The notes under the pieces are model-generated. The model was not told the DNA's origin and made no database searches. It was given only the letters and a program-made list of their open reading frames with translations. This document shows, piece by piece, positions 52,928-64,000 of a stretch of 64,000 nucleotides of DNA. This DNA comes from Embleya hyalina (lineage in GTDB: Bacteria; Actinomycetota; Actinomycetes; Streptomycetales; Streptomycetaceae). The DNA is taken from assembly GCF_003967355.1 (NCBI RefSeq), contig NZ_BIFH01000014.1:186001-250000 (forward strand), given 5' to 3'. Position numbers and translations under genes: made by a program. Each line of letters starts with the position of its first letter. Position 1 is the first letter of the stretch.

Positions 52928-54646
52928 TCACGCCTCGTGCCGGCCGCGGCGGCGGTTCAGGTAGATCGCGCCGCCACCGGCGAGCAGCAGGCCGGCGGCC
53001 ACGCCGGTGATCAGGACGACGTTGGAGTCGTCACCACCGGTGTTGGCCAGGTCCTTGCGGCTGCCCGCCGGGGCGACCGGGAGCCAGGGCACCTCGATCG
53101 GCGGGTTGTCCGTGCCGGGCTCCACGATCGGCTTGGTGGGCGCCTGGCTGCCGCTCGGGCTCGCGCTGCCCGCCGGGGCGGAGGAGGAGGTCGCGGGCGC
53201 GCCCGTGGTGGCCGGCGCGCCCGTGGTGGCCGGTGCCGACGTGCTCGGCGGGATGGTCGGCGTGACCGGGGGAGCCGAAGTGGTCGCCGGGGCGGAAGTG
53301 GTCGCCGGAGCCGAGGTGTTCGACGTCGGCGGGGCCGTCGTGGTGGGCGGCTTCGAGGTGGCGGGCGGCGTGGTCACCACCGGCGGCGGCGTGCTCGCGG
53401 GAGCCGTCGGCGGCGTGGTGGTCGGCGGGACCGTCGGGGTCTCGACGCAGTCGAGCCAGCCCGTGTAGGTCTGCGAGTAGCCGCCCGGACCGGTCACGGT
53501 GATGGTGTAGTTCGTGTCCTCGGCGACCTTGACGAACTGCGTCCTGGTCGAGTTGGGCGGGACGGTCACCTTCTCGCCGTTGAGCTTGAAGTCGGCGGGG
53601 CCGTCGCCGGTGTTCTTCAGCGTGACGGTGACCCCGCCCTGGACGCAGTCCTCCTTGTACGCCGACGAGGGGACCGGAACCGGCTGGTGGCTCCACTTGA
53701 CCTGGGCGGCGGCGCTGACCGAGAACGGCTGCGAACCGGCCGCGATCAGGGTCTGCGAGTGCTTGCGGTCCTTGGCCAGGAAGACCCGGCCGATGTTGAC
53801 GCCGGCCTTGGTCGAGGCCGAGATCCGGGCCTCGCCCGGGTTCTGGCTCTTCGGCACCTTGACGTAGAGCTCGGTGCCGTTGGCGGCGGTGCCCAGCGGG
53901 TTGCCGTCCTTGCCGACCAGCGAGACGCCGGTCGGGACGGTGCCGTCGAGCTTGACCGCGACCGGCTCGGTCGAGGTGGTCTTGACGGTGACCGGACCCA
54001 CGCCGGGCGTGTCGCCGTCCTTGCCGCTGGTCGTGGTCGGCGCGAGTTCGAGGGAGGCCCCGGGCTCGGCCGCCTCGCCCTTGTTGGCCTCGCCCGTCAG
54101 GTACTTGTACAGCGTCACGACGTCTTGGCCGTTGCCCGAATCGGACAGGTTCACGCCGTTGCTGTAGTGCCAGATCGCGGCCTGGGTCGCCTCGACGGCT
54201 TCCTGCGCGTCGAGCTTGCGGCCCTTCTTGTCCGGCAGGCCGGCGGTCTTGGCGAGCGCGTCGAGGTCGTTGATCTTGGGGTACGAGTGGTTCAGCACCC
54301 AGTTGATCTTCGCGACCTTGGCGGTGTCCTTGAGCCAGGAGTCGGCCCACGCCCCCTCGCGGTAGTCGACACCCTCTCGGACGGTCGTCTCCAGGTCGAT
54401 GCAGTACACGAGGACCTGAGGAGCGTTGCGCCCCTCGGCGCTCAGCACCATCAACTCGGTCTGCTGCTTCCACCAGAAGCCGGACAGGGCGACCTCGCCC
54501 TCCGTGCGGTCGACGTGCCCACGGAATTGCAGCGCGGCCGTGTCCGCCCGCGCGACGGGCGCGAACCCGACGAGCGCGACGGCGGCCAGACCGGCAGCGG
54601 CACACGCCGACGCCGCGCGGGATATACCCCGCTGTGCCAGGAACAT
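52928..54646 (-). CDS. Thioester-domain (TQXA) surface protein with LAxTG sortase signal
   Basis: 572 residues from ATG 54646 with GGGAG upstream. Residues 1-34 are a signal peptide ending APVARA. Residues 35-200 form a thioester domain: Cys82 in VYCIDLE and Gln155 in ATQAAIW can make an internal Cys-Gln thioester that reacts covalently with host or environmental amines. Two Ig-like stretches follow. A Thr/Pro/Ala-rich stalk (about 410-510) spans the wall. LANTG (533-537), a hydrophobic segment and NRRRGR are a sorting signal of the class E sortase type. It should be a wall-attached adhesin. Confidence 0.92.
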   Translation of the reverse strand: MFLAQRGISRAASACAAAGLAAVALVGFAPVARADTAALQFRGHVDRTEGEVALSGFWWKQQTELMVLSAEGRNAPQVLVYCIDLETTVREGVDYREGAWADSWLKDTAKVAKINWVLNHSYPKINDLDALAKTAGLPDKKGRKLDAQEAVEATQAAIWHYSNGVNLSDSGNGQDVVTLYKYLTGEANKGEAAEPGASLELAPTTTSGKDGDTPGVGPVTVKTTSTEPVAVKLDGTVPTGVSLVGKDGNPLGTAANGTELYVKVPKSQNPGEARISASTKAGVNIGRVFLAKDRKHSQTLIAAGSQPFSVSAAAQVKWSHQPVPVPSSAYKEDCVQGGVTVTLKNTGDGPADFKLNGEKVTVPPNSTRTQFVKVAEDTNYTITVTGPGGYSQTYTGWLDCVETPTVPPTTTPPTAPASTPPPVVTTPPATSKPPTTTAPPTSNTSAPATTSAPATTSAPPVTPTIPPSTSAPATTGAPATTGAPATSSSAPAGSASPSGSQAPTKPIVEPGTDNPPIEVPWLPVAPAGSRKDLANTGGDDSNVVLITGVAAGLLLAGGGAIYLNRRRGRHEA

Positions 54647-55859: not shown

Positions 55860-56711
55860 CTATGCCGGCACGCTGACCAGCGTGCCCCCGTCCGACGTGC
55901 GTACATCGAAGCGGGCCAGATCGTCCTTCGCGGTCCAGGTGCCGGTCTGCAGCACCAGCGGGGCCTCCGAGCCCGGGACGCCGTAGCCCTTCGGCGGCAC
56001 CATCCAGGAGGAGATCTGCTGCTCCTTCCCCGCCTTGTCGACCGCGACCAGCGAACACTTCAGCGGGCCGCGGACGTTGCGCAGTTCGAGCGCCAGGTTG
56101 GTGCCCCACGCCTTGCTCTCCAGGGCGATCCGCGCGGCGGCGCCGCCGTTGGGCCCGGTCGCGCCCACCACCCGCCCGTTCGCGGCGATCACCGCCATCG
56201 GGTCGCCCGGCACCGCCCGGGTCGACGTGGACGAGTCGTCCTCGAACCAGGTCCGCCCGGTCAGTACGCCGGCGCCCAGGCCGATCACCAGCGCCGCGCA
56301 CGCGGCCACCAGCAACGAGCGCCGCGGCGCGCGGCGGGCCGCCCGGCGCGCCGCGAGTTCGTCCACGGGAGCCGAGGGAGCCGAGGGAGCCGAGGGAGCC
56401 GCCGGAGCCGAGCCGGTCGAGGGGGCCGGCGGAGTCGGCGGAGCGACCCGCAGCGCCGGCGGTTCCGGAGCCGCCGCCTGCGGGGGTACGGCCCGCCCGG
56501 CCGGCTCGGGTTCACCCCTCGCCTCCGGCAGCTCGTACACCCCCTCGTCGCGAAGCTCGGTCAGCAGCGTGGCCATGCCGGAGAAGTCCGCCAGCTCGTC
56601 CAGGCAGCGGTCACACGTGGTCAGGTGCTCCTCGAACGCCTCCCGGTCGGCGGGTTCCAGCAGTCCGAGGGCATACGCGCCGACATCCGCGTGTTCGGGT
56701 TGGACGCTCAT
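55860..56711 (-). CDS. Zinc-binding anti-sigma factor (membrane)
   Basis: 283 residues from ATG 56711, overlapping the sigma stop as ATGA. The N-terminal ZAS domain has His29, Cys33 and Cys36 (EEHLTTCDRCLDEL) for zinc. A Pro/Ala-rich linker with APS repeats, encoded by 9-nt tandem repeats near 56355-56400, leads to one membrane span (132-152, LLVAACAALVIGLGAGVL). The outside part (from 160) matches anti-sigma-K-type RskA C-terminal domains. It should hold the neighbouring sigma factor at the membrane until an envelope signal triggers proteolysis. Confidence 0.92.
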   Translation of the reverse strand: MSVQPEHADVGAYALGLLEPADREAFEEHLTTCDRCLDELADFSGMATLLTELRDEGVYELPEARGEPEPAGRAVPPQAAAPEPPALRVAPPTPPAPSTGSAPAAPSAPSAPSAPVDELAARRAARRAPRRSLLVAACAALVIGLGAGVLTGRTWFEDDSSTSTRAVPGDPMAVIAANGRVVGATGPNGGAAARIALESKAWGTNLALELRNVRGPLKCSLVAVDKAGKEQQISSWMVPPKGYGVPGSEAPLVLQTGTWTAKDDLARFDVRTSDGGTLVSVPA

Positions 56712-57271
56712 GACGACACCCCCCTCTCCTCCAGGACGACCCGCAGGGCGCGCAGCGCGTAGTACACGCGCGACTTCGCCGTACCGGCGGGGATGCCGAG
56801 TACGTCGGCCGCCTGATTGACAGTACGGTCGCGGAAGAAGGTTTCGATCAAAATTTCCCGGTGCGATGTGGAAAGCGCGTCCAGCGCGTCGCCGACCACG
56901 ACCGAACGCAGCAGGCGGTCGACCTCGTCGCCGGTGGGCAGCGTGGCCAGCGGCTCGTCGCCGACCTCCGGAGGGCGGGCCGATCGGGCCCGCTGTTCGT
57001 CGATGACCAGGCGGCGGGCGACGGTGACCAGCCACGGCAGCAGCGGGGCGGCGGGATCCAGCTTCTCCCGGTTGCGCCAGGCGCGGACGAGCACCTCCTG
57101 CACACTGTCCTCGGCCCGCTGGCGGTCGCCGCCGTTCAACCGCGAGACGACCGCCAGCAGCGGCCGGGAATACTCGCGGTAGAGCATCGCGACGAACCTG
57201 GTCTCCTCGTCGCCACCCGGCGGGTCGTCGGCACCCGGCGGGCCCGACCCCGGTGTGTCCACATCGGACAT
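56708..57271 (-). CDS. ECF RNA polymerase sigma factor (SigL/SigK-like)
   Basis: 187 residues from ATG 57271, GAGGAGG upstream. Region 2 includes MLYREYSRPLLAVVSRLNG, then AEDSVQEVLVRAWRN and WLVTVARRLVIDEQRAR. Region 4 is LSTSHREILIETFFRDRTVN, then AADVLGIPAGTAKSRVYYAL. It resembles the group with SigL and SigK of mycobacteria, which work with a membrane zinc anti-sigma factor. The gene order and ATGA overlap confirm this pairing. Its own promoter would be in 57272-57528. Confidence 0.93.
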   Translation of the reverse strand: MSDVDTPGSGPPGADDPPGGDEETRFVAMLYREYSRPLLAVVSRLNGGDRQRAEDSVQEVLVRAWRNREKLDPAAPLLPWLVTVARRLVIDEQRARSARPPEVGDEPLATLPTGDEVDRLLRSVVVGDALDALSTSHREILIETFFRDRTVNQAADVLGIPAGTAKSRVYYALRALRVVLEERGVSS

Positions 57272-57528
57272 CCGCGACGGCCTCCTCACCCCGTAGTCGG
57301 GATCCGAGTCCCCGGAACCGCACACACCGTCCCCGGAACTGGCAATACCCTAGGGGAACCGGACCCGCGCCTCGGCCGGATCGGCCCGACGCCATCGATG
57401 GCGCCGGGGTGGCGCCGCGGTGTCGATGGCGGCTGCGACGGTGCCGGCGCGTGGCCGGAAGGCCGTCCCGTCGACGGGATCCGGGCATTTCGGGCGGCCC
57501 GGCCGGCACCGTTTCGACAACCGGTCGG

Positions 57529-58374
57529 TCAGCGACGCAGTTCCAGCGTGCAGCACTTGGTGTTGCCGCCGGCCTTCAGCAGTTCGGTCAGGTCGATTCC
57601 CTGGGGGATGTAGCCGCGCTCGCGCAACTGCGGGCCGAGAAGCGGGACGGCGCGTTCCGGGAGCAGTACGTGCCGACCGTCGGAGAGCGCGTTGAGCCCG
57701 AACATGGCGGCGGCGGCCTCGTCGGCCAGGATCGCGTCCGGGAAGCGCTCGGCCAGGACGCGGCGGCCGGCTTCGTCGAACGCCTCCGGGTAGTACATGA
57801 TCTCGTCGGGGCCGAGCACGGACAGCGCGGTGTCCAGGTGGTAGAACCTCGGGTCGACCAGGGTCAGGCCGAGCACGGGCAGGCCGAAGAACTCGCGGGC
57901 CTCGTCGTGCGCCCGCGGATCGCTGCGGAAGCCGCTGCCGGCCAGCAGTTGCCCGCCGACGAGGAGGAAGTCGCCCTCGCCCTCGTTGATGTACTCGGCC
58001 TGGTGCACCTCGGCCCAGCCGTCGGCGCGGAACCAGTCGAGGTAGGCCGCGGACTCGTCGACGCGCTGTCGGTGACGGAAACGGGCCACCAGCACCCGGC
58101 CGTCCACGACGGTGGCGCCGTTCGCCGAGAACACCATGTCGGGCAGTCCGGGCACCGGTTCGATCAGCGCCACGTCGTGCCCGAGCGCGATATAGGCGTC
58201 GTGCAGGCGTTTCCACTGGGCCAGACCGGTGTCCGCCGACGTGGGCACACTCGGGTCCATCCACGGATTGATCGAATAGGTGACGTCGAAGTAGGTCGGC
58301 CGGCACATCAGATAGCGGCGCGGTCGAACCGTTCGGTTGTCGGGCGTGGTTCGTTCGGTATCTGTCTGGGGCAC
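57529..58374 (-). CDS. ddaH: Dimethylargininase (N,N-dimethylarginine dimethylaminohydrolase)
   Basis: 281 residues from GTG 58374, AAGGGAA six bases upstream. The pentein fold starts YLMCRPTYFDVTYSINPWM. Substrate and catalytic residues sit in MVFSANGATV, INEGEGDFLLVG, the His of RFYHLDTALSVL and the nucleophilic Cys of GGNTKCCTLELR. It turns dimethylarginine into citrulline and dimethylamine, or related guanidino substrates. It is alone on its strand, upstream of the sigma gene by 257 nt. Membership in the neighbouring piperazate-type cluster is possible, not shown. Confidence 0.92.
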   Translation of the reverse strand: MPQTDTERTTPDNRTVRPRRYLMCRPTYFDVTYSINPWMDPSVPTSADTGLAQWKRLHDAYIALGHDVALIEPVPGLPDMVFSANGATVVDGRVLVARFRHRQRVDESAAYLDWFRADGWAEVHQAEYINEGEGDFLLVGGQLLAGSGFRSDPRAHDEAREFFGLPVLGLTLVDPRFYHLDTALSVLGPDEIMYYPEAFDEAGRRVLAERFPDAILADEAAAAMFGLNALSDGRHVLLPERAVPLLGPQLRERGYIPQGIDLTELLKAGGNTKCCTLELRR

Positions 58375-59908
58375 GTTGATTCCCTTGTTCTCCGTGATTG
58401 TGTCCGGGGGATGAAATCAATGCCGAATTCGGCGGTGTGCGACACCGGAGGAAAACACGGTGTGCGCCCGATGATGCGGGCATACCGGAAAAGAGCGGGA
58501 TTGCCGCCGATCGAAACTAGCACGAGGTTCGACCGGATATCCGTCCCGTTGACAGGACAGTCGTCGATTCGGTCGACGCGGCGCCGTGAAAGCGCTCCGC
58601 GACGGGTCGCGCCGGAGATCGATAATCGCGCTTTCCGGCGGACCCGCGGCCGCATTTCCCACCGACGCGAGCGTCGCCGCCCAGAGGCGGCGGGGGCGGG
58701 GTCTCCGGGTCGGCGGGGCGCGCGCGGGGACGCACCCGGAGCGGAGGGGGCGCGGGCGGATCGGATCGCCCCGCCCGATCCCACCGCCGGTACCCGGGGT
58801 CGAGTCGACCCTCCCGGCCACGTCGGAACGCCCCCGGGACGACCGAGCCGAACGCCCGCGCGACCGAGCCGGCACTCACGCCCGTACTCACCCCCGCACC
58901 CAGGTCCGCACCCACATCGACACCCACATCGGCACCACCTTCGGCACCCGGATCCGCGCTCCCGACGACCCCCGACCACCCCCGCGCCAGCTCCCGCGTG
59001 CGACACGCGGTCCGCCGCGGCGACTCCCGGAGGCCGTTCCGGCACTTCTTCCCGTCTCGTCGCACCCCGCCGTGACCCCGACACGCCGCGTGTTCGCCGG
59101 CCGGATCGTGCCGCCGACGCGACGCCGATCGGAACTTCGAGCTGATGTTCGAAACAACCATCCGGATGGTGATCGGATGTCTCCCGCGAGCCTCGCCGTG
59201 AATATCCGAGGGCGGTGCGTTAGGAAGGCGTCAATACGCATGAGTAGCCGAGTGGGGGGCGGTTCAATTCGTCTATAGTGACCGCCCCGCGAGAGTGGTC
59301 GAAGTGATCGATCGAGTGCGCCGGGTCCGGACCTGCGGCCAACCGATTGCCTTTCCTGCGGGTTGGGCTGCGGGACGATCCGGTTGGTCGATTCATTTCC
59401 GCCGTCGGCGAAATGTCGATGAACACCAACCAAACAGTTGCGTAGGCAATCGGTCGCGAACTGTTAGTGGTTGGTTCCTTGATTTCCGGGACTTGCTGAG
59501 ATCTACTCGGGTAGGCCCGATGAGCACCACTCTGAATGTGGATCTTCGGGAGTCGGCGGGGGTGTGCCGCCGACAGCCGCAACGCCAACGGGGATCTGTA
59601 AAGAGGCGAACGGGGCAAACCCTTGATGCACGCATTCGTACACATGTCGACCATGTCCGGCCCTGACGCCGCGCCCTGTGCGTGGTGTAGCCGCATGCTT
59701 CCGGAAGCCGTGTCGCCGATCACCCGGGTGGGGGTGATCCGTCGGCGACAGGTGACACCGGGGTCTGCGGCCGGGCCGGGGGTCCACTGAATGCAGATCG
59801 GATATCGGGCACACCCCGTGGCAGAACTCCCTGGGGCAACGCACTGCGCAAACAGCGGTTATGGCCTGCGCACTATTTGCTTGTTCGAGCATGCACGCAC
59901 ATGGAGGC
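58375..59908. other. 1.5-kb stretch without a convincing gene
   Basis: From 58375 to about 59150 the sequence is very GC-rich, with open frames on both strands but no codon bias, and holds imperfect repeats of ACCCACATCG near 58910-58945. From 59150 to 59900 GC content falls and no frame has a recognisable product. This end probably contains the leader and promoters of the LmbU-like gene and might be a remnant of lost genes. Confidence 0.55.
59711..59750. other. Hairpin upstream of the LmbU-like gene
   Basis: Arms 59711-59725 and 59732-59750 pair along 15 bp, with a 4-nt bulge at 59740-59743. It is about 160 nt upstream of the LmbU-like start and could end transcription from the left or shape the leader. 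Confidence 0.45.
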
Positions 59909-60634
59909 ATGGTGGCGAACCAGACGAGAGTTCACGAACGCGAGAGAGAGGCACAGTTGCACTCGGGGCCGGGAGTGGTCGCCCGTCCGCGAAGAGCTGT
60001 CAGGGAACATCCGCATTGCGGACGATTGCTCACCACAAAGGTGGGTCTGCAAATCCCAGCCGACATGACCTTCGAGGATTGGGAGCAAGCCGGGCGTAAG
60101 CTCTCGGGAATCTTGGATTCCTCGTCGTGGTGGCTCGGCGACTGGTTGGTATACGGAAAAGATCACTATACCGACCTGTATCAGCGAGGGATACGCGCAG
60201 CGGGGTTAAGCTACCAGACGCTCCGGAATTATGCGTGGGTCTCCAGGAGGTTCGACTTCGATCGTCGGCGGTCCGCGCTCAGTTTCCAGCATCATGCCGA
60301 GCTGGCCTCGTTGCCGATCGGTGAACAGGAACTGTGGCTGGACCGCGCGGAACAGATGAAATGGACCACCAAGCAGCTGCGCAACGCCATTCGCGACGCG
60401 CGAGCGGACGAGGGGCGCGACGGCCGGCAGATCGAGGCGACCCGTCGTCTCGCGGTGCCCGGTGATCGTATCCAGTGGTGGCACAAGGCCGCCGAACATT
60501 CCGGAATCGACTTCGAGCAATGGGTGCTCGCGACGCTCGACAACGCCGCCGAGCGGGTGCTCGAGGACGCGATCGAGGTCGCGTTGGAGGACGTCCAGGA
60601 GGGCGTGCCGCAGGAGGCCGGCGTCGGCGTCTGA
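59909..60634 (+). CDS. LmbU family transcriptional regulator of secondary metabolism
   Basis: 241 residues from ATG 59909. The start is uncertain: GGAGG is only one base before it, GTG 59912 is next, and TTG 59957 follows GAGAGAGG at good distance. The core is LmbU/NovE-like: KVGLQIPADMTFEDWEQAG, SSSWWLGDWLVYGKDHYTD, then SYQTLRNYAWVSRRFDF and LSFQHHAELASLP. LmbU-family members activate antibiotic clusters such as lincomycin. The N-terminal part uses codons unlike its neighbours (AGA, CGA, GCA), and a TTA codon is at 60206, so bldA control is likely. It is next to the piperazate-type genes. Confidence 0.85.
   Translation: MVANQTRVHEREREAQLHSGPGVVARPRRAVREHPHCGRLLTTKVGLQIPADMTFEDWEQAGRKLSGILDSSSWWLGDWLVYGKDHYTDLYQRGIRAAGLSYQTLRNYAWVSRRFDFDRRRSALSFQHHAELASLPIGEQELWLDRAEQMKWTTKQLRNAIRDARADEGRDGRQIEATRRLAVPGDRIQWWHKAAEHSGIDFEQWVLATLDNAAERVLEDAIEVALEDVQEGVPQEAGVGV
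60206..60208 (+). promoter_or_regulatory. TTA codon in the LmbU-like gene (bldA dependence)
   Basis: In frame between GGG and AGC (residues Gly-Leu-Ser). TTA is the rarest codon in streptomycetes and is read by the developmental tRNA from bldA, which ties expression to morphological development. Confidence 0.8.
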
Positions 60635-60775: not shown

Positions 60776-61420
60776 TCAGGGCAGGCGGCTCATCAGCTCG
60801 GCCGTGGCGCGATGCCGCGTGCACCCACGCTCGCCGAACGAGCGCTGCACCCGGTCCCGCACCTCGCCGGGTTGTTCCTGGCTCAGCTTGAACATGCCGT
60901 CGGCCCGGGTCACCCGGATCCGGAAGGCGCCCACGCCGCCCACGATGCTGCGGAAGTACTCGACCGATTCGGTCATGTCCCAACCGGTGCCGACTTCGCT
61001 CTCGAAGGCCCGGACGGTGGACTTCACCACGCCCAGCGTCTCGTCCAGCGAATCGATCTTCTCCACCGTGCCTCGCAGGTGCACCGACGTGAAGTTCCAG
61101 GTCGGTGCGGCCGGCGTGATCTCGTACACGGTCGGCGAGACGTACGCGTGCGGTCCGGTGAAGGTGAGCAGCACGGTGCAGCCGTCGGTCAGCGCCCGCC
61201 AATGCGGGTTCGCCCGGTTCATGTGTCCGAGCAACGTGACACCGATCAGGTCGTCGCTCCATTCGGTGTGCCGCTCGGGGTCGAGGATCACCGGCAGGTG
61301 TGTGGCGAAAGGCCCGTCCTCGGGGCTGCCGTTCAGTGCCACGAGCGCCAACGGATTACTGCGGATCAGCTCGACCATCCACGAACCGTCCGGTTCGCGA
61401 TACTGCCGGGGAACGAACAT
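60776..61420 (-). CDS. PaiB-fold protein, probable piperazate synthase (KtzT-like)
   Basis: 214 residues from ATG 61420 with GTGAG upstream; 61465 is a poorer start. It begins MFVPRQYREPDGSWMVELI like PaiB-type FMN-binding proteins, with FATHLPVILD, GHMNRANPHWRAL, AYVSPTVYE, PTWNFTSVHLRG and the C-terminal MFKLSQEQP. KtzT, the heme enzyme that forms the N-N bond of piperazate from N5-hydroxyornithine, belongs to this fold and was annotated as PaiB. The divergent gene encodes an ornithine N5-hydroxylase, the step before, so piperazate synthase is the best reading; a plain PaiB-type protein remains possible. Confidence 0.8.
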   Translation of the reverse strand: MFVPRQYREPDGSWMVELIRSNPLALVALNGSPEDGPFATHLPVILDPERHTEWSDDLIGVTLLGHMNRANPHWRALTDGCTVLLTFTGPHAYVSPTVYEITPAAPTWNFTSVHLRGTVEKIDSLDETLGVVKSTVRAFESEVGTGWDMTESVEYFRSIVGGVGAFRIRVTRADGMFKLSQEQPGEVRDRVQRSFGERGCTRHRATAELMSRLP

Positions 61421-61804
61421 CCGGAACTCACCCTTTCGGTGACCTGGTGCAGGGCGCGGCTCCACGACGACGGAGCCGGAGTCCTTGGTATGGATACGAG
61501 CGGGGTGCCGCCGTGGCGGGGGTGTTGTCCCGTCGGCAGGACGGCGTACTCCGCTGCATTGCGACCGAGCCCTTGAAAGGTGTGCTCGGCCCCTCTAAGT
61601 TGAAGCTGCGGTGCTTCCCGGCGCAATACCGAATGCGTTTCTCCCGGATCTCCGGTCGAGAGATGCGGGAACAGCCGACAACGCTCGACGATGTTTTCCG
61701 CTGAATTCCAGGACGCCCGACCAGGGTCCCTTCCCGGTTTCCGTGACCGACCCGTCGAAGATACGGAAGTCCCTGTCGCCGCCACGCTAGCGAGAGAGTA
61801 TTCT
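61421..61804. other. Divergent control region between the two piperazate-type genes
   Basis: 384 nt with lower GC than the genes. TTGAAG at 61600-61605 is a possible -35 box on the + strand. No convincing gene; the frame of the + strand gene stays open to 61691 but the ribosome site and family start favour 61805. Confidence 0.4.
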
Positions 61805-63121
61805 ATGGGTACTTTTGCACATGAAATCTACGACGTGGCGGGCATTGGATTCGGGCCCTCCAATCTGTCCCTGGCCATCGCCCTGGAGGAGTACGGGGGC
61901 GCCGGTCGAAACGGATCCCCGGACCGACCCGGGGCGATATTCTTCGAGCGGCAGCGTGCGTTCGGCTGGCATCGCAATATGTTGCTGCCGACCGCCACCA
62001 TGCAGATCTCGTTCATGAAGGACCTGGCCACGTTCCGGAATCCGGTGTCGCGGTTCAGCTTCGTGTCGTATCTGCACGAGGCGGGCCGGCTCGCGCAGTT
62101 CGTCAACAACCAGGACTTCTTCCCGACCCGCCAGGAGTTCCACCAGTACCTGGAGTGGGCGCAGGCGAGCTTCACCGACCGGGTGCACTACGGCTCGGAG
62201 GTCGCCGCGATCCGGCTGCCCGCGGGCGTCGACCCGGCCTCGGCCGAACATCTGCGCCTGGAGATCCGCGACGGCTCCGGGACCCGTACGGTCGACGCGC
62301 GCAACGTGGCCATCTCCACCGGCCTGGTGCCGCGCCTGCCCGACGGCATCCAGGCCGACGAACGGGTGTGGCACAGCTCGGAGTTCCTGGACAAGTACAG
62401 CCGGACCGACCCGACCGGACTGCGCACCGTGGCGGTGGTCGGCGCGGGCCAGAGCGCGGCCGAGATCACCCGGTTCCTCTACGACGAACTCCCGCACGCC
62501 CGGGTGTACTCGATCATCCCGTCGTACGGCTACTGCGTGGCCGACGACACCCCGTTCGCGAACCAGGTGTTCGACCCGAGCGCGGTCGACGCGTACTACT
62601 TCGGGACCGACCGCACCCGCGAGGCGTTCTGGCAGTACCACCGGAACACCAACTATTCGGTGGTCGACGACGAGGTGATCCGCGACCTGTACCGGCGCTC
62701 GTACGACGAAGAGGTGCGCGGGGTCGAGCGGTTGCACTTCCTCAACCTGACCCGGGTCGACGAGGTCAAGCGGGCGGGCGACGAGACCCGCGTGTCACTG
62801 CTGTCGCTGCTCGACGACGAATCGCCCGAACTGGACGTGGACGCGATCGTGTTCGCCACCGGCTACGAGGCGATGGAACCGAGCCGCCTGCTGGGCGAGT
62901 TGGACCGGTACTGCCTGCGCGACGAGGCCGGCCGGCACCGGGTGGGCCGCGACTACCGACTCGTCACCTCGCCCGAACTGCGCTGCGGCATCTATCTCCA
63001 GGGCGGTACGGAGCACACCCACGGGCTGACCTCCTCGCTCCTGTCCAATCTCGCCATCCGCAGCGGCGAGATCGCCGAGTCGATCCTCGGCCGCCGTCCG
63101 GCGGAGGCGCTACACGGCTGA
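61805..63121 (+). CDS. L-ornithine N5-monooxygenase (KtzI/CchB/PvdA-like)
   Basis: 438 residues from ATG 61805, with GAGAG upstream. The FAD motif is VAGIGFGPSNLSLA (11-24). FGWHRNMLLPTATMQISFMK is the substrate-region signature of the family. The NADPH motif is VAVVGAGQSAAEI at about 205. DAIVFATGYEAMEP is the conserved D-x3-FATGY-x4-P motif. It makes N5-hydroxyornithine, used in hydroxamate siderophores or, with a KtzT enzyme, piperazic acid. No siderophore synthetase is near, while a KtzT-like gene is divergent from it, so the piperazate route is preferred. Confidence 0.92.
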   Translation: MGTFAHEIYDVAGIGFGPSNLSLAIALEEYGGAGRNGSPDRPGAIFFERQRAFGWHRNMLLPTATMQISFMKDLATFRNPVSRFSFVSYLHEAGRLAQFVNNQDFFPTRQEFHQYLEWAQASFTDRVHYGSEVAAIRLPAGVDPASAEHLRLEIRDGSGTRTVDARNVAISTGLVPRLPDGIQADERVWHSSEFLDKYSRTDPTGLRTVAVVGAGQSAAEITRFLYDELPHARVYSIIPSYGYCVADDTPFANQVFDPSAVDAYYFGTDRTREAFWQYHRNTNYSVVDDEVIRDLYRRSYDEEVRGVERLHFLNLTRVDEVKRAGDETRVSLLSLLDDESPELDVDAIVFATGYEAMEPSRLLGELDRYCLRDEAGRHRVGRDYRLVTSPELRCGIYLQGGTEHTHGLTSSLLSNLAIRSGEIAESILGRRPAEALHG

Positions 63122-63926: not shown

Positions 63927-64000
63927 TCAGGGTTTGATGCCGACGGCGCCGTAGCCCCAGACGTTCTCGACCTCGTCCAGCGGGTGTCCGGGTTCGCCGT
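63927..64000 (-). CDS. C-terminal fragment of an unidentified protein (cut by right edge)
   Basis: 23 codons ending at TGA 63927, reading GEPGHPLDEVENVWGYGAVG then IKP. The frame has normal actinobacterial codon use. Too little is visible to name the family. Confidence 0.45.
   Translation of the reverse strand, partial: GEPGHPLDEVENVWGYGAVGIKP

Follow-up and report, generated by a model that had tools for sequence, protein, structure and literature searches.

Cluster mining expects precursor genes to be located beside the assembly line. For piperazic acid (Piz), it is already known that the biosynthetic genes are absent from some clusters, as reported for the two Piz genes of the aurantimycin (art) and polyoxypeptin systems in the accessible part of a study (PMC10888640), and that a gene of the LmbU family can reside beside the piperazate synthase (PZS), as found for himastatin and lunaemycin. 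In the latter case, Lun16, Lun17 and Lun18 are described in the accessible text as ornithine N5-hydroxylase (NMO), PZS and LmbU (PMC9866976), and LmbU also adjoins PZS in S. himastatinicus (L146). In the lincomycin system, LmbU targets the palindromic GC-rich sequence CGCCGGCG, according to the accessible parts of two reports (PMC6510168, PMC10763038). Here, we describe a window of 64,000 nucleotides from Embleya hyalina (genome G000, 12.05 Mb in 78 contigs; contig C14, positions 186001-250000), which contains genes for a DDAH-like enzyme, a LmbU-family regulator, a PZS and an NMO. We refer to these four genes, whose coordinates are given as window positions, as the hub. Our analysis suggests that this detached hub probably supplies Piz in trans to assembly lines encoded elsewhere, with LmbU switching the hub and a distant cluster together. 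This reading builds on results computed here: gene identities assigned by sequence, the single copies of PZS and LmbU, Piz codes and distances, the positions of the palindrome and the conservation seen in a second species. As far as the literature was searched, the mapped and conserved detachment by about 300 kb and a palindrome joining hub and user are new: searches for Embleya with piperazic and for piperazic acid with dimethylarginine found no paper, and a search for LmbU with piperazic found only the one on lunaemycin.

Proteins were characterized in Pfam and NCBIfam profile searches with curated cut-offs, and enzymes were identified by sequence comparison with solved structures in the PDB. 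Four Embleya genomes were compared, comprising E. hyalina, a second species in an 8-contig assembly (G004), E. scabrispora DSM 41855 (G020) and G031, together with a sample of 80 named PZS-bearing loci in stretches reaching about 10 kb from PZS.

Hub enzymes and their distance to the assembly lines

The PZS gene (60776-61420, minus strand; longest open reading frame (ORF) starting at 61465) encodes a protein of 214 residues that matches PF04299 with 142 bits (cut-off 22.4), gives no match in the NCBIfam profile search and is the single PF04299 protein found genome-wide in E. hyalina. The top solved structures are PipS (9ebk, E 1e-100) and KtzT (9jn4, E 1e-76), followed by LnzB (9kea), SbPZS (9qlk) and then the N-hydroxylamine dehydratase NohD, with identities over the aligned stretches of 68% for PipS, 58% for KtzT, 53% for NohD, 52% for LnzB and 48% for SbPZS. 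Bit scores of 339 for PipS, 261 for KtzT and 171 for NohD compare to 96 for PaiB, which, together with the retention of haem-site residues, rules out an ordinary PaiB and upholds the proposal of the initial annotation that this PaiB-fold protein is of the KtzT type. Retained at seven of eight compared positions are Thr38, the haem ligand His61, Asn63, Asn66, Thr102, Tyr150 and Lys173 (SbPZS numbering), and Gln at position 178 is shared with PipS and KtzT. As NohD keeps the same active-site residues, these do not discriminate PZS from NohD. The protein also contains the sequence MFKLSQE, corresponding to KLSQ with flanking Met and Glu, which the accessible part of PMC10888640 describes as PZS motif. 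By its sequence, the protein looks like a genuine piperazate synthase, with predicted activity on N5-hydroxyornithine.

The divergently oriented NMO gene (61691-63121, plus strand) likely starts at 61805 (MGTFAHEIYD...), since the ORF of its orthologue in E. scabrispora begins at the corresponding methionine. The protein scores 350 bits against PF13434, its sole NCBIfam match falls under the cut-off, and its best match in the PDB is KtzI (4tlx, E 2.6e-171), with MbtG behind (E 4e-133). Its assignment as KtzI-type L-ornithine N5-hydroxylase agrees with the initial annotation, which had also placed both genes of the pair correctly in coordinates and strands. In the pathway that we propose, arginine would be converted to ornithine by the DDAH-like enzyme and hydroxylated by NMO to N5-hydroxyornithine, from which PZS would generate free L-piperazic acid by haem-catalysed N-N closure. 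Free Piz would then be loaded by two adenylation (A) domains of an azinothricin-like hybrid of non-ribosomal peptide synthetase (NRPS) and polyketide synthase (PKS) located about 300 kb away, and by one A domain of an NRPS on contig C13.

For the detection of such domains, A-domain codes were read from 46 stretches of NRPS loci in E. hyalina, with five being too partial for a code. Code positions were mapped by motif, a mapping which we take to be correct and which was checked through the recovery of published codes. Three A domains in two distant loci carry Piz codes (C14:547005, DVFSVASY; C14:559463, DVFSVAAY; C13:781019, DVFSVAAY), and a query with the first of them returned exactly these three in the genome at an identity of at least 53%. 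Published Piz codes include DVFSVASY and DVFTVAAY of diperamycin, as given in the accessible part of PMC10888640. The same query in 29 other genomes returned 30 loci, all with DVF[SC]-type codes; with the exception of one genome, scoring there was limited to 48 candidates each, out of as many as about 140. A weaker match in G233 at 48% identity carries the code DAYWWGGVF, which is not that of Piz, and a Piz domain can thus not be recognized from identity alone under about 50%. Near PZS-type genes, the unusual A-domain code DVQFN(A/G)HM was observed repeatedly (L043, L044, L048, L121, L133, L140). The locus at C14:528-596 kb is, as judged from its sequence, an azinothricin-like NRPS-PKS, with the code order DAFWLGGTF, DVFSVASY, DVPDEALVE, DILQLGVIW, DVFSVAAY and DMTQIGWTW, an additional A domain (DLRHIGQDV) with a carrier, and genes for an E1 dehydrogenase, a KAS III and PKS/ketosynthase (KS) proteins.

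The PZS/NMO pair is located at 246.8-249.1 kb of C14. The initial annotation had placed the left edge of a cluster for a Piz-containing peptide in the window, with its assembly line beyond position 64000, a proposal that was to be dropped if assembly-line genes were absent within about 50 kb. Whereas the Piz module, its LmbU regulator and the presence of Piz-coded assembly lines in the genome were all borne out, the window is not a cluster border. The first A domain found on C14 is at 392.0 kb, 142 kb past the window end, and is not Piz-coded, the first of the 43 stretches in the genome matching the condensation (C) domain PF00668 to fall on this contig is at 393.7 kb (144 kb past the end), and the first KS (PF00109) is at 573.9 kb (324 kb past the end). 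A search with one A domain as query yielded no match in the 186-392 kb interval of C14, and searches with PF00668 and PF00109 found neither C domains nor ketosynthases left of the hub. On the right-hand side, eight proteins were scanned and identified as a methyltransferase, MarR, MFS, two dehydrogenases, GNAT, a decarboxylase and LigD. We rejected a cluster edge on these distances and on the equivalent region of G004, where no A or C domain was found in 100 kb around the hub. A border would be in line with the proximity seen in other members of the family, as all ten genomes that have PZS on one contig with an A domain identified as Piz-specific by its code show a distance of 1-52 kb, and still we regard it as extremely improbable.

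The layout is conserved in a second species. In G004, the flanks of the hub are collinear with those of E. hyalina at about 91-96% nucleotide identity, and Piz A-domains are located 308 and 320 kb from the hub on the same 7.0-Mb contig, with one more on contig C4. As this 8-contig assembly has the same layout, we rejected an assembly artefact of C14 as explanation. All four Embleya genomes contain one PZS each and Piz-coded A-domains, in differing arrangements. In E. scabrispora, the matching locus on C122 has kept LmbU, NMO, the DDAH-like gene and the palindrome described below, with PZS shrunk to a decayed 5' stretch (C122:73037-73642, L230), and a PZS-NMO pair adjoins Piz-coded modules on C119. 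In G031, PZS, the DDAH-like gene, LmbU and NMO are found together adjoining an NRPS gene on C900. The detached position of the hub and the decay of PZS in E. scabrispora would both be expected from an unused relic of a lost local cluster, with Piz derived from elsewhere or the distant A-domains loading a different substrate. We consider such a relic improbable, since E. hyalina and G004 both have open reading frames for the four hub genes, at 96-99% mutual identity, and no other PZS was found in either, and since the loss in E. scabrispora is accompanied by another PZS elsewhere.

To place the separation in a wider context, we took 29 PZS-bearing genomes outside Embleya, of which 13 without an A-domain match at E 1e-125 were dropped. 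Among the remaining 16 are the ten mentioned above, with PZS and the Piz-coded A domain on one contig at 1-52 kb, which makes a separation of about 300 kb unusual in this sample. In G202, G223, G245, G002 and G233, Piz A-domains reside on contigs other than that of PZS. In G175, a match coded DVFHMAAY is found 17 kb from PZS (C8:31842), and clear Piz codes are located on C2 and C26 (L205, L215), suggesting that supply in trans may extend beyond Embleya. In G158, NRPS modules lie 3 kb from PZS, and the three codes read there are not Piz-like.

A palindrome shared by hub and distant cluster

The LmbU-family gene of the hub (59861-60634, plus strand) matches NF038070 with 227 bits (cut-off 125) and is convergent with PZS, confirming the LmbU-family member that the initial annotation had seen on one side of the divergent PZS/NMO pair. 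A family search found a single such gene in E. hyalina, G004 and E. scabrispora each, and two above cut-off in G031. Across the 80 named PZS genomes, LmbU is convergent with PZS at a distance of up to 2 kb in 58 of the 75 loci having room, NMO is divergent within 1 kb in 48, and both arrangements occur together in 38, whereas in 11 no NMO was found in the stretch examined. As it recurs in this way, the grouping of PZS, NMO and LmbU is not due to chance.

Word counting in 48 PZS-NMO intergenic regions, comprising 47 named loci and the window, revealed the perfect dyad TGTCCTGTCGACAGGACA. At up to five mismatches, the palindrome is present in 46 of the 48 regions compared to 13 of 960 shuffles and is absent from L092 and L114. 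Scans of genomes were carried out with the 18-bp palindrome TGTCCYGYCGRCRGGACA, of the type TGTCC-N8-GGACA. In the window, one site with a single mismatch is located in the divergent PZS-NMO promoter (61526-61543) and a second, with two mismatches, 168 bp upstream of the DDAH-like gene (58542-58559). Both had escaped the initial annotation, as had the DDAH-like protein itself. Between the first site and NMO, at about 61560-61620, a stretch is unusually conserved compared to E. scabrispora, which is perhaps the NMO promoter. A site of up to two mismatches is found within 500 bp upstream of PZS in 63 of the 80 named loci. At up to one mismatch, 123 sites were detected in 1.49 Mb of PZS loci compared to none in the reversed sequences, and none in 190 kb of the E. 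hyalina genome excluding the hub.

In the whole genome of E. hyalina, only four sites of up to one mismatch were found, one at the hub (C14:247526) and three (542147, 571233 and 592411) in the Piz NRPS-PKS cluster, which accounts for about 0.6% of the genome. Because the motif was defined without this cluster, its three sites constitute an independent prediction. The sites at 542147 and 592411 are intergenic and closely precede an A-domain gene and a C-A module, and the one at 571233 is inside a rough ORF call in E. hyalina and between genes in G004. The latter genome carries four matching sites and a further one at C4:377817, which falls inside a rough ORF call, yet precedes by 180 bp the first C domain found in the second Piz NRPS of this genome. 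At up to two mismatches, 23 sites in E. hyalina compare to three in a backwards control. The published LmbU site CGCCGGCG is found at the centre of the site at 592411; the 8-mer by itself is uninformative, with 29 copies in the window and none at 57-64 kb. Adjacency, the presence of a sole family member in the genome and this central match link LmbU to the palindrome, of which it is the likely reader as predicted from sequence. LmbU would probably bind to the palindrome at the hub promoters and in the distant cluster, and thereby allow the co-expression of unlinked supply and use.

Several observations weigh against this reading. With respect to the palindrome, 19 of the sites in E. hyalina have two mismatches and are mostly located away from Piz loci, and the excess over the backwards control is smaller in E. 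scabrispora (18 vs 6), G004 (17 vs 6) and G031 (11 vs 6). For the second Piz NRPS of E. hyalina, on C13, the sole site is degenerate (CGTCC-N8-GGACA, at 779482), and no site of up to two mismatches was found directly upstream of LmbU in this genome. Among the 21 of the 80 named loci with a DDAH-like gene at about 10 kb or less from PZS, in varying positions and strands, only five have a site of up to two mismatches upstream of that gene. With respect to the pathway, the Piz specificity predicted for the three A domains rests on their codes, and E. hyalina encodes at least three further full-length PF13434 proteins, so that hydroxyornithine might also come from enzymes other than NMO. Finally, sites of up to one mismatch occur in 60 of 66 named loci with a LmbU relative (at least 55% identical) and also in 11 of 14 loci without a relative in the stretch examined, which indicates that LmbU and the palindrome are not tightly coupled at a range of about 10 kb.

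These 11 loci would be accounted for if hub and distant cluster were linked through a different regulator. We find this unlikely, albeit worth bearing in mind, as LmbU is adjacent in most loci, as it is the sole family member, as its published site fits the dyad centre of one operator, and as in the 14 loci a LmbU gene may be located more than 10 kb away. Much less likely still is a non-NRPS metabolite into which unknown neighbouring enzymes would convert free Piz, which would be in line with the absence of an NRPS from the searched surroundings; the scanned neighbours are ordinary, and the NRPS-PKS cluster is indicated by the palindrome that it shares with the hub. We thus favour LmbU as the common switch of a detached hub and its distant user. 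Whether this extends to a genome-wide Piz regulon, where a single LmbU would read an 18-bp operator in the hub as well as in each cluster that uses Piz, with one source and one switch serving several unlinked lines, appears evenly balanced. Such a regulon is suggested by E. scabrispora, in which the detached locus holds the single LmbU-family gene found, and in which palindromes are located at the PZS-NMO pair on C119 and, in more degenerate form, at three Piz loci (C119, C106 and C147), in each of which sites of two or three mismatches precede an NRPS gene.

The DDAH-like gene and further neighbours

The fourth hub gene (57529-58374, minus strand) encodes a DDAH/arginine-dihydrolase-like enzyme that passes the dimethylargininase model NF045659 with 413 bits (cut-off 300) and scores 193 in Arg_dihydro, below the cut-off of 450. 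Its nearest solved structures are ArgZ (Sll1336) and Alr4995, and the ArgZ-type residues N22, N71, H168 and C264, which we take to be the catalytic positions of ArgZ, are retained. A second DDAH-like gene (L253, C17:412873-413655 in E. hyalina, with L254-L256 as the further Embleya rows) by eye adjoins an ornithine-aminotransferase-like gene in E. hyalina and G004. In this second copy, most ArgZ-type catalytic residues are lost, with the columns of N71 and C264 altered in all four rows and that of H168 in three. PZS-linked DDAH-like proteins, including the Embleya hub copies, share at least 56% mutual identity compared to at most 48% with the second copy. In a tree of DDAH-like proteins, with 26 hub-type rows including two identical pairs and L257 omitted for its low score, both groups are split by one branch (100/100), with ArgZ outside both. 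We count the gene among those of the hub and propose a role in feeding ornithine from arginine. A comparable function was proposed for dpnA, located beside dpnZ in the diperamycin pathway, in the accessible part of PMC10888640.

Adjoining the hub, a sigma factor and a probable anti-sigma factor are encoded at 55860-57325, a pair that is retained in G004 and E. scabrispora. The gene at 52928-54646 encodes a protein of the surface type that carries a thioester domain (PF08341) and, by eye, a LANTG-type C-terminus.

Comparison with known systems

The relationship to art and polyoxypeptin concerns the C14 cluster, which likewise lacks its own Piz gene pair. In the art strain S. aurantiacus JA 4570, NMO, PZS and LmbU are grouped (L116, 7884-11831) and accompanied by a gene that by eye is MbtH-like, in a 20.6-kb stretch in which no A or C domain was found; these are possibly the Piz genes missing from the art cluster. 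If our reading is correct, the reported lack of Piz genes in both clusters gains a testable answer. Proximity-based mining, which would class the hub as an orphan pair, could then miss or misjudge Piz peptides, and the TGTCC-N8-GGACA palindrome, which provides the LmbU family with a concrete candidate operator in pathways to Piz, could be used to reconnect precursor hubs with their users.

The DDAH-like protein resembles ArgZ, AgrE and Rv2323c, a relative from M. tuberculosis whose gene belongs to the roc cluster and which is required for growth on arginine as described in the accessible part of PMC4569260, in being a DDAH-like member with ArgZ-type residues, but differs in the location of its gene in a Piz hub, with an activity that is predicted from sequence. 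The hub regulator shares with LmbU of the lincomycin system its family and, as putative target, a palindromic GC-rich sequence, whereas the hub palindrome extends to 18 bp with TGTCC/GGACA ends and its putative targets include an unlinked cluster about 300 kb off. With the azinothricin family (diperamycin dpn, aurantimycin art and polyoxypeptin), the C14 cluster has in common two Piz codes, DILQ-type and DMTQ-type codes with the latter being last, a similar order, a stand-alone A domain with carrier and PKS genes. It differs from diperamycin in the code DVPDEALVE, found in place of the Ser code, and in the location of its predicted supply pair outside the cluster, whereas dpn holds the Piz pair inside. 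Finally, the hub contains the same two enzymes and catalytic residues as the known pairs KtzI/KtzT, HmtM/HmtC and that of PipS, but whereas these pairs reside inside their own NRPS clusters, the hub is located about 300 kb from its predicted user.
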